DNA of 64,000 bases from an uncultured Opitutales bacterium. Its GTDB lineage: Bacteria; Verrucomicrobiota; Verrucomicrobiia; Opitutales; Seribacteraceae. Under the pieces are notes generated by a model, which worked only from the letters and a program-made list of their open reading frames with translations, did not search any database and was not told the DNA's origin. Position numbers and translations under genes: made by a program. The stretch lies in NCBI GenBank assembly GCA_943787575.1, contig CALSMY010000006.1, positions 62,001-126,000 on the forward strand, in the 5' to 3' direction. Positions 44,450 to 51,886 of the stretch are shown here, piece by piece (the stretch's first letter is position 1; each line of letters starts with the position of its first letter).

Positions 44450-46180
44450 ATGTTTTTTAAGATCACTTTTTCTGCAATTTGCATAGTTTCATTGTCCTTT
44501 GGATTATTTCCTTTGAACGGGCAAAACCCCGCGGATATGCCCATGCGGCAAGTGATGAGCGAGGCTCAGCAATTAATTGGTGAGGGAGATTATGCCAGTG
44601 CAGCACCATATTTAGATCAGCTTGAAATTCGCTTTGCTGGTGAAGGTAATCCGGAAGTTGAAAAAATTCTCGAACAATTTGGATATGTCCGGGGTGTTGG
44701 ATACCTTCAAAACTTTGGCAAAACTGGAGACATGTCCAACATGCAAAAGGCAGCGGATGCATTTGCAAAGTTTGTGGGGAAATACCCCGAAAATGAAAAT
44801 GCAGTTGCCGCGATGCAGCAGCGCACTACTTGTTTGCGTGCTTTACAAAAATGGGATGAAGCCGCAGAAGTGATCGAAGAATTATTGGATGAGGATAAAC
44901 CTTTTAAGAAAAAAATTCTTAGAAGGAGTGATTTAATGAATCTTTATTATGGTAGGGCTCAGTGTTACCACATTAAACAAAACTGGAGAAGTGGTGAAAA
45001 AGCTTTCGATGAGTTACTTAAATTTGCCGACCTTGCCAAGGATGAAGACAGAGCGGCTTACGCTGTTTCCTGCATGGTGGAAATGTTTGTTAAAGAGAAA
45101 AGGATAGACGAAGTATTTCCTCTACTTCCGAGGTTGTCAGCTGATACTCCTGCCCGCTTTGATCTTCGATTAAATGTGAACCTGATGCAGGGGGCTGAGG
45201 TTCTAAAGGAAAAGGACAGACAAGTAGAAGCATCTCTTCTCTTTGCCCTAACCATGACGACTGAAGAAATTGTGACCTTTTACACTGCAAGGGAAAAAGA
45301 AATTTCCTATGAAATAGATCAAATCCAATCATTTATTGACTCACAAGGTAGACGATTACCACCTAAGAGAGTTTCATCTCTCAAAAATAGAATCAATGAA
45401 TTGGCGATGAAGGCAACAAGCGCTCGGAGTCATCTAAAACTAGCAAAGGACACTCCTTCCTTCACTACCGTTTTACGATGGAGAAAAGCGGATAACTTTC
45501 AGGCTTGTAAGAGGGAATGGGAGTCGTTCTGGGCATTTTATTGGCTTTATAAGGACTTTCCTGATCACGAAATGGTGGAAAATTTCATTTATGCCGCCTT
45601 TGCATCTGCAAACACCGTAAAATTTCGCGAGAAATCAATTGAGCTGGGAGAAGAGTACTTGGCGAACAAGGAGTTATTGAAGTTCCGTGCCGATGTTACC
45701 TTTATTATGGCAAACGCTTATCGTAAGGAAGTGGTTTCACAAATGGAAATCGTGGAGGAATTACAAGCTTCCCTGGCTACCGTTGATAAAGAGAAAGCGG
45801 CTGCCGCAAAAGCAAAAGCTGACGAATATCAAGCCCGATTTTTTGAACTTTGTGAGGACTTTTTAGAAGTCATGCCTGAACACAAATATTCTCGTGAATT
45901 TATTGGTATGATGGGTGCTGAGTTTTTCAAACGCCAAGAATTTGACAAGTTGCTCAATAAATTTGCTGGTTTCGAAAATGGAACTTTTAATCCATCCCTG
46001 GGATATGCAAACAAGAAAGAACTCCAAGGAACCGTAGCTATGGGCCGTATTAACTACATGAGTGGACTGGCTTTGCTAGCCAGTGGAAACTATGATGCTG
46101 CTAAACCTTTCCTCGGTGCAGTTGTCGGGGTCAGTATCAAAGGCCTACCTTTGGACGAAGCAGCGATTGAGGAAGAATGA
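44450..46180 (+). CDS. Secreted TPR-like helical repeat protein
   Basis: A signal peptide (MFFKITFSAICIVSLSFGLF) is followed by about 550 residues of helical repeats with the alanine and tyrosine spacing of TPR units, for example AQQLIGEGDYASAAPYLDQL and MQKAADAFAKFVGKYPENEN. A coiled coil (about residues 435-470, MEIVEELQASLATVDKEKAA) lies in the second half. The frame is open from a TTG at 44396, but the ATG at 44450 gives the signal peptide. It is first in a six-gene unit ending in ExbB/ExbD proteins; its stop overlaps the next start (ATGA). It is probably a periplasmic scaffold. Confidence 0.75.
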   Translation: MFFKITFSAICIVSLSFGLFPLNGQNPADMPMRQVMSEAQQLIGEGDYASAAPYLDQLEIRFAGEGNPEVEKILEQFGYVRGVGYLQNFGKTGDMSNMQKAADAFAKFVGKYPENENAVAAMQQRTTCLRALQKWDEAAEVIEELLDEDKPFKKKILRRSDLMNLYYGRAQCYHIKQNWRSGEKAFDELLKFADLAKDEDRAAYAVSCMVEMFVKEKRIDEVFPLLPRLSADTPARFDLRLNVNLMQGAEVLKEKDRQVEASLLFALTMTTEEIVTFYTAREKEISYEIDQIQSFIDSQGRRLPPKRVSSLKNRINELAMKATSARSHLKLAKDTPSFTTVLRWRKADNFQACKREWESFWAFYWLYKDFPDHEMVENFIYAAFASANTVKFREKSIELGEEYLANKELLKFRADVTFIMANAYRKEVVSQMEIVEELQASLATVDKEKAAAAKAKADEYQARFFELCEDFLEVMPEHKYSREFIGMMGAEFFKRQEFDKLLNKFAGFENGTFNPSLGYANKKELQGTVAMGRINYMSGLALLASGNYDAAKPFLGAVVGVSIKGLPLDEAAIEEE

Positions 46181-48456
46181 TCATGAGTTGGTTGACTACA
46201 TACCCATCAAAGAAAAGCATTACTAATTTGTTGGCATCTAGAATCAGTTTTTTGCTTTCATTACCGCTCATTTTGGGAACAATTGGATGTGGGGGAGATG
46301 ACCCTGTTACCACTGATGAGTCTGCAGAAAAAACACCTGCATCCGAAGTTGATTCTACTGACATTACCGATGGTAATTTGGATGAGGGCTTAGCCCCAGA
46401 CCCTGTAGAACCTGACCCAGAAGAGTCTGAACCTCTCGAGGTTCCCGATCCGAATGGGGTATTTTTGCCGATGTATGATGAGAAGGATGGTAAGATGGAA
46501 ATGGTCAAATTAAACGATCATCCAGTTTACTCGAACGGGGAAGGCTACTTTTTATGGACCAATGGTTCTCTGTGGAATATTACCACCAAGGTTGGTTCGG
46601 GAAGAACGGTTGCATCCGGCGGAGAAAACTTGGTTGATTCCTGGCCGAATGGAGCTCAAGCAAGATTTTCTCCGGATGAGGAGTATGCAAAACAGGCGAT
46701 GTTCCGCTTGGCAGTTGCTTTCCAGGGATCTCAAGATAATGAAAATGCCATCCGTTTGTTTAGCCAGTTTGTAACTTTATTCCCAGAAGATAAACTTGTG
46801 GCAGAAGTTTACTTAAGCATGGGAGATCTTGCTACAAGTGGTTTAGGGCCCGACACCCAGCCAAGTATTAAGCAAATTCAACAAGCAAGAACTAGTTATT
46901 CCAATGTCCGGAAAAACACAGAACAAATTGGTTTAATTTCTGATTCTGTTGCCAATGAGGGTGGTCTATTGGAGAGGGTGGGCGAAAACCCCGAAGGCTT
47001 GGTCAACCATTTCCTGAGCTTCGATAAAGATTCAGATAAATGCGTTGGTAAGGGGGAGTATGATGCTTTGCGGGTAGATATGAAAGATTCCTTTGAGTTT
47101 TCATTGGCGGATCATGATTTTAACGGCGATTCAAAATTACAATTTGAAGAACTTTACGACGCCGCGACAACTTCCTGCTACAAGGAGATCGAATCTCTGT
47201 ACACTGATTACATGGGGAACTATGGATCCCAAGAAGGGGCTCAAGTAGCCAAGGCCACCGAAAAAATTGGTTTTGCGAAAGAGAAATTAGGACAGCCTTC
47301 CGCCATGTTAAAATTGTACTTTGATGAAATTAAAAAGTTTGGCAATGATCCCGCAAACCTAGGTGTTGATGATCTCCTCAAAAAATACTGCGAAAAGTAT
47401 CGTTATTATGAAGATCGATTTGGACAAACCCTAGAGGTTTTGGAAAAACTCCAAAATCCTTCAGAGCAAGTAACCTTCAGTTTTACTGATCGCAAAGGGG
47501 TCGAGCAGCAGGTCTCAGGTACTGTTCAGGAAATCATACTCGATCGCAGCAAAAGTTTGTCCATGCTCTCCTCTCAATACAATCAGATGGATCCGAAAAT
47601 CTATGAGGATATCGTCAAATATCGAGGAGGTGTTTTCAATAACCCTAAGTATATCGAACAGTTTAAAGGTTATTTAAAAAAATATGAGGGATTACAGTCC
47701 CGTTTTCCTAAGGATTTATCACCCTCCAAAGCTTTTGCTTCCATGTTACAAGTGGCAGAGTCCAATGGCCAAAAAAGCCTCGAACTCCGAATGAGGGCTA
47801 ACCTTGACCGGGTTGGCTCTCGGGTTGGCTCGAACTACAATCCCCAGGCAAATGATTTCCCTGCGGCCAGCCCAAGTGTTTTGATTTGGATGGCCCAAAA
47901 GATGTTGGCACAGAACTCACTCAATGACGCCCTTGCCGCGATGGAAAGACTTTCTCAAGTCTATCCCAATGCTGAGGGTGAACTTTTGTTTTCAGCTAAC
48001 TATATCATCGGCCAGGTTCACGACAAAAATAAGGATTTTGAAGAATCTGCTAATAGCTATGACATCGCGATTACCAATGCTCCTTGGCACCCCAACTCTA
48101 ACAATGCCCGATTACGCAAAGGACATGCATTGTACGAAATTGCCAAGATTAATAAAGACAGCGATAAGTTTCTTCTGGCTCAGGCTTCTTTTGGTGAAGC
48201 CAGAGATAGCGACGAAAGTACAATGGAGCTGAAAGGTGAATGCTCTTACATGATGGGGGAATGCCTCAAAGAGATGAGAGATTTTGAAGGGGCATCCCGA
48301 CATTTTGATGACACTACCTCAAGGTATGCGTCATCAGGTAAGTGGGCCGAGAAAGCATTCGATCAAGCTATTAGTTGTTATGAAAGAATTGGTAATTCCA
48401 ACCAAGTCAGCAGGCTGGAGAAGAGAAGAGATGATTGGCTAAGGAGGTACCAATGA
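46177..48456 (+). CDS. Probable lipoprotein with TPR-like repeats and an EF-hand pair
   Basis: A hydrophobic signal ends at TIGC (C38), a plausible lipobox. An acidic proline-rich linker follows to about residue 90. TPR-like units flank the middle (YAKQAMFRLAVAFQGSQDNE near 170; PNAEGELLFSANYIIGQVHD and ASRHFDDTTSRYASSGKWAE near the end, similar to YbgF/BamD-type repeats). Two canonical EF-hand loops lie in the centre: DKDSDKCVGKGE (residues 283-294) and DFNGDSKLQFEE (314-325). The protein should therefore bind calcium in the periplasm. It is coupled to genes on both sides. Confidence 0.75.
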   Translation: MIMSWLTTYPSKKSITNLLASRISFLLSLPLILGTIGCGGDDPVTTDESAEKTPASEVDSTDITDGNLDEGLAPDPVEPDPEESEPLEVPDPNGVFLPMYDEKDGKMEMVKLNDHPVYSNGEGYFLWTNGSLWNITTKVGSGRTVASGGENLVDSWPNGAQARFSPDEEYAKQAMFRLAVAFQGSQDNENAIRLFSQFVTLFPEDKLVAEVYLSMGDLATSGLGPDTQPSIKQIQQARTSYSNVRKNTEQIGLISDSVANEGGLLERVGENPEGLVNHFLSFDKDSDKCVGKGEYDALRVDMKDSFEFSLADHDFNGDSKLQFEELYDAATTSCYKEIESLYTDYMGNYGSQEGAQVAKATEKIGFAKEKLGQPSAMLKLYFDEIKKFGNDPANLGVDDLLKKYCEKYRYYEDRFGQTLEVLEKLQNPSEQVTFSFTDRKGVEQQVSGTVQEIILDRSKSLSMLSSQYNQMDPKIYEDIVKYRGGVFNNPKYIEQFKGYLKKYEGLQSRFPKDLSPSKAFASMLQVAESNGQKSLELRMRANLDRVGSRVGSNYNPQANDFPAASPSVLIWMAQKMLAQNSLNDALAAMERLSQVYPNAEGELLFSANYIIGQVHDKNKDFEESANSYDIAITNAPWHPNSNNARLRKGHALYEIAKINKDSDKFLLAQASFGEARDSDESTMELKGECSYMMGECLKEMRDFEGASRHFDDTTSRYASSGKWAEKAFDQAISCYERIGNSNQVSRLEKRRDDWLRRYQ

Positions 48457-49697
48457 TAAAGACTTTTTGTACTAAGCGCTGGCTGCTTCTCGTTGCCATT
48501 TTCTGCTCAAGTACCGCTTTTGCAGCAGAAGACTATTTTAAAAAATATGGCGGTGGCGGTATTTCGGTAAAAGTACATTACCTAAAGTCAGCTGCTACTA
48601 AGCCAATGAAGCTTTTGGGCATAGACTCTGCCCGGGGCATTATTTATGCAGAAATGGAGGGTGCTGGTCGATTGGAACTAGAGTTACGTGGTCTGCAAAG
48701 ACAGAATATCAAAAAATTTGAGTTCGACTGGTCAAGAAACGCGAAAACATACCTCAATTACTTGTCTAATGAGCAATACGACCCCCGTGTACTGACGGCA
48801 TTAAGGCCAGAGATTTACAAAGTCATGCTCTTTCTTGATATGCCCTTTGAATACCTTGCCATTCATGATGATTGCTTAACCTATGTCAAAGGCCTGTTGG
48901 GTATGGAGCAATACAATGAGGCTTTTTATTTACTCTCTCGTTTAAATCTTTCTCGACTGGATGGTTATGGATATAGAGATTTTTCTGAAGCTGCTCTCGA
49001 GTTGTGTGGGAAAATGATTGTATCAAACCCTGATTCTGCTAAAGCATCCCGAGCTCTTTTACAGCGAATATCGATTCGGGATAACAGTGCAGATCATGCC
49101 TCTTACCTACGTTTGGCAGATTCGTTAAGGCAGCAAGGACTTTATACCGAGGCGATCAGTGAATACGCTAGACTTGGACCGATTGTAGCCAAGGACGCAA
49201 ATAGTCCATATAATAAAATTTTGGAAATATGGCCGGTTTACTGTTACATGAAATTGTACGAAGTTTATGCTCCTGCTGCAGCCAAAGATAAAAGATATGC
49301 AGCAGCAGCTGGTAAAATGTTCAATTCTGCAGTACAGGGTCTTAAAAAACTTGATGATCAACCACCGGCTCGAAACACCAACGAATATTCGCTGTATAAA
49401 TTATTGCGTTCTTTACTTCGCGTTCAATATGCCAGGATCCATGACGCCCGTGGAGAAGAGTTAAAGTCTGCAGATTACTACAGGCAGTCTGTGCTCGAAG
49501 TTACAGAGGGTATAGTCAATGCCCGGATTGGACTAGATTGGTTACCTGAATCTTTAATGATGGCAGGAGATGCTTATGAAAAGCTTGAACTTCAAGAAGC
49601 TGCCCGAAATGTCTACAACCAAATCAAAGTATTCTTTCCTAAAACCAAGTGGGAAAAAATGAGTATCGAACGACTGGCCAATCTGCCCCAATCATAA
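48453..49697 (+). CDS. Secreted TPR-like protein of unknown function
   Basis: A signal peptide (about residues 5-25, ending STAFAAEDY) leads into a short beta-rich stretch (GGISVKVHYLKSAATKPMKL, IIYAEMEGAGRLELELRGLQ) and then helical repeats (GMEQYNEAFYLLSRLNLSRL, LRQQGLYTEAISEYARLGPI, ESLMMAGDAYEKLELQEAAR). The ATG at 48453 overlaps the stop of the previous gene (ATGA); the frame is open from 48435. No enzyme motif is seen. It is third in the ExbB/ExbD operon. Confidence 0.7.
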   Translation: MIKTFCTKRWLLLVAIFCSSTAFAAEDYFKKYGGGGISVKVHYLKSAATKPMKLLGIDSARGIIYAEMEGAGRLELELRGLQRQNIKKFEFDWSRNAKTYLNYLSNEQYDPRVLTALRPEIYKVMLFLDMPFEYLAIHDDCLTYVKGLLGMEQYNEAFYLLSRLNLSRLDGYGYRDFSEAALELCGKMIVSNPDSAKASRALLQRISIRDNSADHASYLRLADSLRQQGLYTEAISEYARLGPIVAKDANSPYNKILEIWPVYCYMKLYEVYAPAAAKDKRYAAAAGKMFNSAVQGLKKLDDQPPARNTNEYSLYKLLRSLLRVQYARIHDARGEELKSADYYRQSVLEVTEGIVNARIGLDWLPESLMMAGDAYEKLELQEAARNVYNQIKVFFPKTKWEKMSIERLANLPQS

Positions 49698-49756
49698 TCT
49701 AACAAATCCTCATTGACCTATATCAATATTCTTACTTTTCTAATTCCTTAATCGCA

Positions 49757-50578
49757 ATGAACCGCACTATGAAACCTTGTACCTTACGTATACCTGCCTG
49801 CCTCCTCTTACTCTACGCTACTCTTTCGCCAACTATGCTTGTTAATAAAGCCTTGGCTCAAGACAGTAATCTTTTCGTTGCAGCATGGAGTAATTTGGGC
49901 CCCACTTTCTTTACTGTATTTTTACTCCTTATTATCGCCGGCATAACTTTGATTATTTTCAATAGTATCAATGTTCGCAGAAAAGCTTTTATTAAGGATG
50001 ATGTAATTGATCCAATCATGGATGCAGTCAAGGGCCTTGATATTGAAGGTGCGAAATCGCTTTGCGACCAGTATAAACTTCCCATTACTTCGATTATGAA
50101 AGGGGGCTTGGAACGTATACAAGATGACGAGTTAGATATCGAAGCGATTGAAAAAGGATTAGATGAAAACGCAGCCTTGCATATGTCGAAACCATTTACC
50201 TGGATCAATATGTTGAATACGGTTGGTTCGATTGCCCCAATGGTTGGACTGCTTGGTACCGTGGTTGGTATGATTGGTGCCTTTGCCGTCTTAACCAGTG
50301 CTGGTATGGGTGGAGAAGCAAGTAAGCAAATGGCAGGTAATATTGGTAGTGCACTTTGGACGACAGCTGCCGGTCTCGTGGTTGCGATCCCTTGTCTGAT
50401 TTCATATTTTCTTTTCAAAACAAAGTTTGGAAACATTGCGGCAGAAGTAAACAAGGTAACAGGATCTATGGTCTTCACTCTTGTCCGTGCTGCCCGTGGC
50501 GGATTTGAAGATGAGGGTGGTGCGGAGGAAGTATATGAGGAAGATACTTTTGAAGAAACCGCTCCTGAACCTGCCTGA
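49757..50578 (+). CDS. MotA/TolQ/ExbB-family proton channel protein
   Basis: An N-terminal signal-like segment (about 8-34, ending NKALAQDS) precedes the first true membrane helix (about 50-72). A cytoplasmic region follows, then the conserved pair of helices: NMLNTVGSIAPMVGLLGTVV GMIGAF (about 150-180) and GNIGSALWTTAAGLVVAIP CLISYF (about 200-225), the hallmark of TolQ/ExbB. An acidic tail ends the protein. With ExbD-type partners it should form an inner-membrane channel that converts proton flow into force on envelope proteins. The extra N-terminal signal occurs in many ExbB proteins of this group. Confidence 0.93.
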   Translation: MNRTMKPCTLRIPACLLLLYATLSPTMLVNKALAQDSNLFVAAWSNLGPTFFTVFLLLIIAGITLIIFNSINVRRKAFIKDDVIDPIMDAVKGLDIEGAKSLCDQYKLPITSIMKGGLERIQDDELDIEAIEKGLDENAALHMSKPFTWINMLNTVGSIAPMVGLLGTVVGMIGAFAVLTSAGMGGEASKQMAGNIGSALWTTAAGLVVAIPCLISYFLFKTKFGNIAAEVNKVTGSMVFTLVRAARGGFEDEGGAEEVYEEDTFEETAPEPA

Positions 50579-50624
50579 TTGAATATTTTTATCGCTGACT
50601 TACTGTTTTAAAAGACCGTAAATT

Positions 50625-51044
50625 ATGGCAAAATTTGAAGTGCCAGATACCAACGACTCACCGGATCTTACTCCGATGATTGATGTCGTATTCCTATTGA
50701 TTGTATTTTTTATGGTCGTGGCTAAACAGGTCTCCGAGCAATATGTTGAGCTTTCTGATCCTAAGCTCGGCATTGCTTCAAATGCTAAAATTCCTGAGTC
50801 GCCTCCATCGCGCACTATTATTTCTGTGGATGACGATCCTTCGATGGGACAAATGATTTATTGGGGAGAACAACCGATTGATATTTCTCAAGTCTCAGTT
50901 GCCGTAGCCAGAAATCCCACATGGAAAGTCTTTTTGCGTTACCATGTAGATATTCCTGCATCGGTTCTCAATGATGTCCATGAACAAGTTTTGATGGGAG
51001 GCCAATCGAATATTGTTTTTGGTGCCTTCAAATCTGCGGAGTAG
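50625..51044 (+). CDS. ExbD/TolR-family protein 1
   Basis: A 139-residue protein with one membrane helix near the N-terminus. LTPMIDVVFLLIVFFMV contains the conserved proton-carrying Asp (D19) and the Pro before it. The periplasmic domain (SRTIISVDDDPSMGQMIYWG) is short and unlike its neighbour. It should assemble with the ExbB-like channel. Confidence 0.92.
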   Translation: MAKFEVPDTNDSPDLTPMIDVVFLLIVFFMVVAKQVSEQYVELSDPKLGIASNAKIPESPPSRTIISVDDDPSMGQMIYWGEQPIDISQVSVAVARNPTWKVFLRYHVDIPASVLNDVHEQVLMGGQSNIVFGAFKSAE

Positions 51045-51054
51045 AATAAAAGTC

Positions 51055-51489
51055 ATGGATACTTTTAAGAAAATTTTGGATGATGTAGATGAGGTCGATC
51101 TTACCCCAATGATTGATGTTACTTTCTTGCTACTAATTTATTTCATGGTTACTACCATGATCAAACAACCTGAGGCAGAACTCTCTGCCATTCTCCCGGG
51201 AAAATCTGCACCGAGTAGTTACAATAAGCCGAAGCCAGAATCGCATATAGAAATCGAAGCAGATGGCTCGGTTAGGGTAGATGGCAACTATATGGGTAAT
51301 GCATTTGAAGCATTGGACCTTCCCGATGTTAAAGATTATTTACTTGGAGAAAAAAGTAAGCATGGGGAAGATTTTGTAGTACATATTTGGACAGATCCAC
51401 TAGCTAATTGGCAAGCCCCTCTAGCTGCATTGAATGCATGCGGTGCTGCCAAGATAAAGAGTGTATCGCCAAATATGAGAAGGAAATAG
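51055..51489 (+). CDS. ExbD/TolR-family protein 2
   Basis: The second ExbD-type subunit, also with one membrane helix and the conserved Asp in DLTPMIDVTFLLLIYFMVT. The periplasmic part includes PESHIEIEADGSVRVDGNYM. The frame is open from 51013 inside the previous gene, but the ATG at 51055 (MDTFKKILDDVDEVDLTPM) is the family-like start. Two different ExbD paralogues next to one ExbB are typical of Tol-like or gliding-type machines and of some TonB systems. Confidence 0.92.
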   Translation: MDTFKKILDDVDEVDLTPMIDVTFLLLIYFMVTTMIKQPEAELSAILPGKSAPSSYNKPKPESHIEIEADGSVRVDGNYMGNAFEALDLPDVKDYLLGEKSKHGEDFVVHIWTDPLANWQAPLAALNACGAAKIKSVSPNMRRK

Positions 51490-51502: not shown

Positions 51503-51886
51503 ATGGTAGTTAGCAAGTTTCTACATACCCGTATGCGGGTAAATGATTTAGAAAAAACGCTCGAATTTTATCAGCGTGTTTTTGGTTTGGAAATCACCCG
51601 TAGGCATGAATCTCCCCGGGGGTCTAAGTTAGCATTTCTTGCTGTTCCTAACAGTGAAGAGGAAATTGAAATTACCTATTTCCCGGGATCTGGCCCAGTG
51701 AAAGTACAGGAGGATCTAATGCACTTGGCCTTTGAGGTCGATAGTATGATAGATTTTCAAACTCATTTAGATTCAATTGGTGTGCCCTTGAGTGATGGTC
51801 CAACCCAAAGCTCATCAGGTTCAATTTTTGCTTTTGTGGATGCACCTGAAGGTTACGAGATTGAGGTAATTGAACGGCCAAAGTAG
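51503..51886 (+). CDS. gloA: Glyoxalase I (lactoylglutathione lyase), VOC family
   Basis: A 127-residue VOC protein with the four metal ligands of GloA-type enzymes: His in FLHTRMRV, Glu in EEEIEITYF, His in LMHLAFEVD and Glu in GYEIEVIER. The LEKTLEFYQRVFGLEITRR start and SIFAFVDAPEGYEIE are family marks. It would convert methylglyoxal-glutathione adducts to lactoylglutathione, or act on another thiol adduct. It begins 13 bases after the ExbD gene, so it may be co-transcribed, but no functional link is evident. Confidence 0.9.
   Translation: MVVSKFLHTRMRVNDLEKTLEFYQRVFGLEITRRHESPRGSKLAFLAVPNSEEEIEITYFPGSGPVKVQEDLMHLAFEVDSMIDFQTHLDSIGVPLSDGPTQSSSGSIFAFVDAPEGYEIEVIERPK

Follow-up and report, generated by a model that had tools for sequence, protein, structure and literature searches.

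A TolQ/TolR-like motor operon with split TPR proteins in an Opitutales family and a probable vWA transducer encoded in trans

Introduction

Which protein is moved by an ExbB/ExbD-type motor when no TonB, TolA, TolB or Pal is encoded beside it? The question is raised by a cluster of six genes at positions 44450-51489 of the window (the stretch of 64,000 nucleotides from an uncultured Opitutales bacterium analysed here), in which genes for three TPR proteins are followed by one ExbB/TolQ-like and two ExbD/TolR-like genes. In the initial annotation, the repeat proteins were taken as the only candidate partners of the motor encoded nearby, and the whole as possibly a Tol-like, gliding-like or new envelope machine. 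The locus is read here, with a probability of about 0.55, as a variant, at the level of one family, of the TPR-TolQ-TolR-TolR-vWA machine of Verrucomicrobiota, which would work with an HTH-fused vWA transducer encoded in trans.

Results and discussion

The six genes and their predicted products

The coordinates and the tight order of the six genes were verified (Table 1), as were the ATGA overlaps at the T1/T2 and T2/T3 junctions. All three upstream products gave Pfam TPR matches, and the motor subunits passed the Pfam cut-offs with 95 bits for ExbB and 48 and 58 bits for the two ExbDs. T1 and T3 had been described as secreted and T2 as a lipoprotein, in agreement with the signal peptides found in the former two and with the invariant Cys38 of the latter, which lies after a hydrophobic stretch and is followed by Gly-Gly in the manner of an outer-membrane lipoprotein. 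Scans of the locus for promoters, terminators, repeats and Rfam families returned nothing.

Table 1. Coordinates of the operon features in the window and the evidence for each.
Feature	Position	Strand	Evidence
T1, secreted TPR protein, 576 aa	44450..46180	+	Pfam TPR, signal peptide
T2, TPR lipoprotein, 759 aa, invariant Cys38	46177..48456	+	Pfam TPR, conserved columns, AF2
EF-hand-like pair within T2, residues ~283-325, DKDSDKCVGKGE ... DHDFNGDSKLQFEE	47023..47151	+	Sequence, conserved columns, AF2
T3, secreted protein, 414 aa, N-terminal five-stranded domain, then TPR superhelix	48453..49697	+	Pfam, AF2
ExbB/TolQ-like motor subunit	49757..50578	+	Pfam; pore Thr kept; family-specific Ser for Glu of 'AEAL'
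ExbD1/TolR-like subunit, TPMID proton-binding Asp	50625..51044	+	Pfam
ExbD2/TolR-like subunit, TPMID proton-binding Asp	51055..51489	+	Pfam
Glyoxalase-fold gene, directly 3' of ExbD2 and conserved there	51503..51886	+	Pfam, synteny

In the AF2 model of T2 (pLDDT 77), the N-terminus is disordered and the TPR superhelix bears an EF-hand-like insert. The model of T3 (pLDDT 88) shows a five-stranded N-terminal domain joined to a TPR superhelix; a Foldseek search of both models against the PDB retrieved generic TPR superhelices alone. The EF-hand proposed for T2 is visible by eye in the sequence and is modelled as a pair of loop-helix units whose short strands lie at residues 289-291 and 320-322, although the pair obtains no Pfam score. 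Ahead of the TPR part of T2, residues ~90-150 (46444-46626) hold a conserved motif region of unassigned type, PDPNGVYLP...GFFMWFNGSxWKISDK.GGG.

Conservation of the operon within the family

A scan with T1 over 84,980 species genomes yielded 15 loci from genomes labelled Opitutales, Opitutia or Verrucomicrobia(ota). The genes for T1, T2, T3, ExbB, ExbD1, ExbD2 and the glyoxalase follow each other in the same order and on the same strand in all 15, wherever the locus is not cut by a contig end. Identity to the window proteins falls in the deeper branch to 58-64% for T1, 43-50% for T2 and 61-63% for T3, so that the order has been kept over real divergence, and the presence of the six genes in every uncut family locus shows that the cluster is not due to chance. 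The upstream oligopeptide ABC genes are kept in some loci and are replaced in L007-L009 by distant, oppositely oriented ones; they therefore lie outside the unit. The separation of T1 from T2 is not a sequencing error, since the members of the family share both the T1 stop and the T2 lipoprotein start. In one single-cell genome, a further stop breaks T2 into two ORFs (L012:11729-13885), and this one may be an error of the sequence. On the evidence of sequence and synteny, the six genes are a real, conserved machine of the cell envelope, predicted to be driven by protons.

T1 and T2 correspond to one long TPR protein of the phylum

The T1 profile matched 33 of 388 genomes of the phylum. Outside the family of the window the match was a single TPR protein of ~1000 aa, after which a T3-like protein, an ExbB and two ExbDs are encoded in most loci. 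The proposal that the six genes make up a single machine is strengthened at both levels, by the syntenic order in the 15 family loci and by the recurrence of a homologous operon, with its TPR, T3, ExbB and two ExbD genes, in more distant Verrucomicrobiota.

When aligned with the long-TPR profile (1006 positions), T1 covered positions 8-413 with 305 bits and T2 positions 597-978 with 158 bits. Because T1 thus matches the N-terminal and T2 the C-terminal part, the two are assigned as the split counterpart of the long TPR protein, whose middle is, by the same alignment, replaced by the C-terminal region of T1 and the N-terminal region of T2, including the EF-hand-like pair. That the operons are the same is supported by the glyoxalase gene, which lies between ExbD2 and the next operon gene, coding for a vWA protein, in L065 and L066. 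In L076 it is placed just beyond the vWA gene, and the glyoxalase-fold gene is a conserved operon neighbour across families.

A vWA transducer often follows the motor genes in relatives

The next gene of the relatives codes for a protein of ~450 aa, in which a proline-rich linker joins an N-terminal helix to a degenerate vWA domain. In seven of ten sampled vWA proteins, the helix carries S or T (once A instead), three residues and then H, and in the remaining ones the His is mostly kept and the Ser is not. The SHLS motif, with which TonB docks on ExbB and TolA on TolQ, opens with Ser-x3-His (PMC12215075). A vWA match was found within 12 kb of the best long-TPR match in 45 of the 64 genomes listed, several of the others ending at contig borders. 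As an initial tally of TPR matches (377 of 388 genomes) reflected mostly cross-matching of generic TPRs, it was rejected and a threshold of E <= 1e-30 was adopted for the long TPR protein. With this threshold, and E <= 0.001 for vWA, both proteins occurred in 96 of the 388 genomes, the long TPR alone in 17 and vWA alone in 11, in lists that were transcribed by hand and in which the relatedness of the genomes inflates the Fisher p-value.

The view of the repeat proteins as the only candidate partners of the motor finds no support. A TonB/TolA partner always adjacent in relatives had been named beforehand as a finding that would weaken the original interpretation, and a TolA/TonB-like vWA transducer is largely what the relatives have. 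The proposal of a new machine was also too strong, since the 'TPR-TolQ-TolR-TolR-vWA' arrangement of the PVC bacteria was published in 2025 (PMC12204202); the description as Tol-like was a fair one. The operon of the relatives, with one long TPR and a vWA gene, corresponds to this published arrangement, and the window family is for this reason classed, from its sequences, as a derived variant, which has a split TPR protein with an additional EF-hand lipoprotein half, no adjacent vWA gene and, throughout the family, the ExbB substitutions described below. It is a variant of a recently described kind and no categorically new machine. One operon vWA gene of the relatives codes for two tandem vWA-like units in 764 aa (L078:12091-14388, +).

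An unlinked HTH-vWA protein as the probable transducer

The operon of the window and all 15 family loci lack a vWA gene, and at E <= 0.001 the vWA profile had no match in the genome of the window (G000; 2.1 Mb in 20 contigs, 86% complete). At E about 0.001, an unlinked protein was detected at C8:95625-97097 of this genome, and it was also found in ten further genomes of the family. This brings the number of genomes that encode it to at least 11 of the 16 in the family, a count obtained with the distant profile alone from genomes that are mostly partial MAGs or SAGs. Its ~490 aa comprise an HTH at residues 4-54, a basic stretch, one helix, a linker of ~100 aa and a degenerate vWA-like domain. 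Full-length matches were absent from the remaining 387 phylum genomes, and within the sample of 388 the full-length protein is confined to this family.

When compared by hhalign with the operon vWA transducers, the HTH-vWA protein gave a probability of 98.2% and an E value of 6e-14, and the controls gave 0.4% (a vWA of the Bat type) and 0.5% (a canonical vWA of 360 aa). By this comparison, its vWA domain is homologous to those of the operon transducers. Within its helix only Leu86, Ser89 and Asn93 do not vary, so that it reads S-x3-N against the S-x3-H of most relatives; according to Swayne and Postle (2011), Asn fully replaces His20 of TonB in E. coli. Taken together, these results make this unlinked gene the probable source of the missing transducer. 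Other vWA proteins were discarded as candidates: the VWA_2 matches at C14 and C3 lie in clusters of the MoxR/DUF58/BatA type, and a ~360-aa vWA protein of seven family genomes (L085, L086) has no adjoining ExbB where the surroundings were read and matches the HTH-vWA profile poorly.

The motor subunits and direct coupling to the TPR proteins

The motor subunits score highest with the NCBIfam models of TolQ and TolR, above those of ExbB and ExbD, and the long TPR protein of a relative scored 126 bits with YbgF/CpoB (cut-off 90), a value inflated by the repeats. Both pore Thr positions of ExbB are invariant in 16 of 16 family members and the TPMID Asp is invariant in both ExbDs, so ExbB, ExbD1 and ExbD2 have, as judged from these residues, the parts of a proton-driven motor of the 5:2 type.

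Two other positions of ExbB are fixed in the family in one way and in 19 operon relatives in another. In all 16 family proteins the Glu of 'AEAL' is Ser and the Ser of TM1 is Ile, the latter in a helix for which the alignment with TolQ is weak and uncertain by several residues, TolQ Ser28 being paired with an invariant Thr. Docking may consequently have been changed or lost, which counts against a transducer in trans, as do the unlinked position of the HTH-vWA gene and its detection in 11 of the 16 genomes. These substitutions, together with the lack of a vWA gene at all 16 family loci, would also fit a direct action of the periplasmic domains of ExbD1 and ExbD2 on the TPR proteins, in which case the loss of the operonic vWA gene would mark the switch to this direct mode, with a different role for the HTH-vWA protein. 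Such a switch is considered unlikely, as the persistence in trans of a specific homolog of the lost transducer, with the S and N of its helix conserved, would be unexpected if docking had been abandoned.

The HTH of the unlinked protein

The HTH is the most conserved part of the HTH-vWA protein, with a mean identity of 0.79 compared to 0.66 for the vWA domain and 0.41 for the helix. Its Pfam matches are of the transposase type, although weak and below the cut-off (HTH_Tnp_1, E = 0.002), and this part of the protein also has matches among short multi-copy ORFs of other genomes. The conservation of the HTH and the nature of its match would be expected of a membrane-tethered transcription factor of ToxR-like architecture, which would sense the periplasmic machine and transduce no force. 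With the HTH match below the cut-off, and with S-x3-N, invariant in the helix, being what a motor-docking helix would keep, this role is judged decidedly unlikely. A combination of both functions, in which a domesticated transposase HTH would in this one marine Opitutales family be fused to the vWA transducer of this motor, so that the motor pulls on or reports to a membrane-tethered DNA-binding domain and its mechanical state is passed on to transcription, is a rather doubtful proposal. Cytoplasmic fusions to the vWA transducer are seen more than once, since a vWA protein beside the operon of a relative carries an N-terminal Ser/Thr protein kinase (L084:6845-9322, -; Pkinase, 134 bits).

Other motors in the genome

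Five MotA/TolQ/ExbB matches were found in G000, corresponding to the locus of the window, two genes in L022, one in L021 and one MotA. L022 holds a complete DUF3450-ExbB-ExbB-ExbD-ExbD-TonB-TPR operon, in which the one TonB_C match of the genome is located (C7:152.8 kb), and TonB-dependent receptor plugs are encoded at five places unlinked to the locus of the window. The N-terminal helix of this TonB (MGLAALVSFGLFCLLPL; L022:12396-13073, +) shows no obvious S-x3-H, although the gene lies in a complete Ton operon. The statement that TonB, TolA, TolB and Pal are missing thus holds for the locus, and equally for the surroundings of the 15 family loci, and has to be qualified for the genome by one TonB in an operon of its own. 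No match to TolB_N or to OmpA/Pal domains was obtained in the 86%-complete genome, which gives no sign of the separate Tol-Pal set that had been suggested as a check; the lack of TolB_N was rejected as a special trait of G000, as the domain is matched in just 13 of the 388 genomes sampled from the phylum.

The ExbB/ExbD pair in L021 (L021:10241-11403, -; C7:80 kb) is TolQ/TolR-like, is located beside fabD and has no adjoining TolA, TolB or Pal. This second pair, which keeps a Trp in its first membrane helix, could be the partner of the HTH-vWA protein instead, and the operon of the window would then borrow the one TonB of the genome or another unlinked partner. Such an exchange appears quite improbable, as the HTH-vWA domain is most closely related to the transducers of the operon type found in the window and the TonB already belongs to a complete operon. 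Lastly, that the TPR genes adjoin the motor genes but share no function with them is very improbable despite the abundance of TPR proteins in the phylum and despite a locus in which TPR, T3 and vWA genes have no ExbB/ExbD over the ~12-16 kb read to each side (L074:7581-13266, +; L113, L114), since the synteny of 15 of 15 family loci and the same gene set across families largely refute it.

Proposed mechanism and comparison with known systems

If the HTH-vWA protein is the transducer, proton flow would turn or flex the ExbD1/ExbD2 pair, and the S-x3-N helix of the unlinked protein would dock on ExbB in the way that the S-x3-H helix of TolA or TonB does. The vWA domain would then pull the periplasmic TPR assembly of T1 and T3, which T2 could tie to the outer membrane. 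This reading corrects the idea of the TPR proteins alone as the load, and it places the surprising part of the system outside 44450-51489, in a probable force transducer that left the operon and gained a transposase-type HTH. The family can be regarded as a natural experiment, in which the transducer has probably left the operon, its cytoplasmic end has been rebuilt and the motor has changed at positions fixed elsewhere. The question of docking is now testable, namely which protein is pulled by the motor, and whether a trans S-x3-N helix serves in place of S-x3-H.

The PVC vWA clusters of the Tichowtungia type (PMC12204202) share with the locus the gene set and order, with the TPR upstream and two different ExbD/TolR genes, and a homologous vWA domain, which is found here in the unlinked protein. 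They differ from it in that the TPR protein is split in two in the window family, with an EF-hand lipoprotein part added, and in that the vWA gene is outside the operon, its probable counterpart being unlinked, HTH-fused and equipped with S-x3-N instead of S-x3-H. The Tol-Pal system likewise has a TolQ/TolR-like motor, CpoB/YbgF-like TPR proteins and an outer-membrane lipoprotein, whereas the locus has three large TPR proteins and lacks a TolA C-domain, TolB and a Pal/OmpA domain, the place of TolA domain III being taken in the relatives by the vWA domain. With Ton systems of the TonB2 type, the ExbB/ExbD motor and a nearby TPR protein are shared, but no TonB is encoded at the locus and the genome has its separate, complete Ton operon.

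The long TPR protein is present in roughly a third of the sampled phylum genomes, and strong TPR and vWA matches were obtained even in genomes of 1.2-1.7 Mb; the machine therefore appears to be a basic one for these cells. Its most likely job is a Tol-like coupling of the outer membrane to the cell wall, a best guess held at somewhat less than even odds, because of the TolQ-, TolR- and CpoB-like scores, the lack of a recognisable TolB or Pal and the presence of TPR and vWA in such small genomes. Uptake of macromolecules comes next and is possible, if not favoured. Within the same phylum, the mucin utilisation loci MUL1 and MUL2 of Akkermansia hold genes for pili and for a periplasmic complex required for the accumulation of imported mucin products, and MUL1 may be taken as a tentative lead to a homolog. 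By their description the two differ from the locus: MUL1 is described as Sus-like and as not syntenic in aquatic Akkermansiaceae, and MUL2 as pilus-like (PMC13174399).
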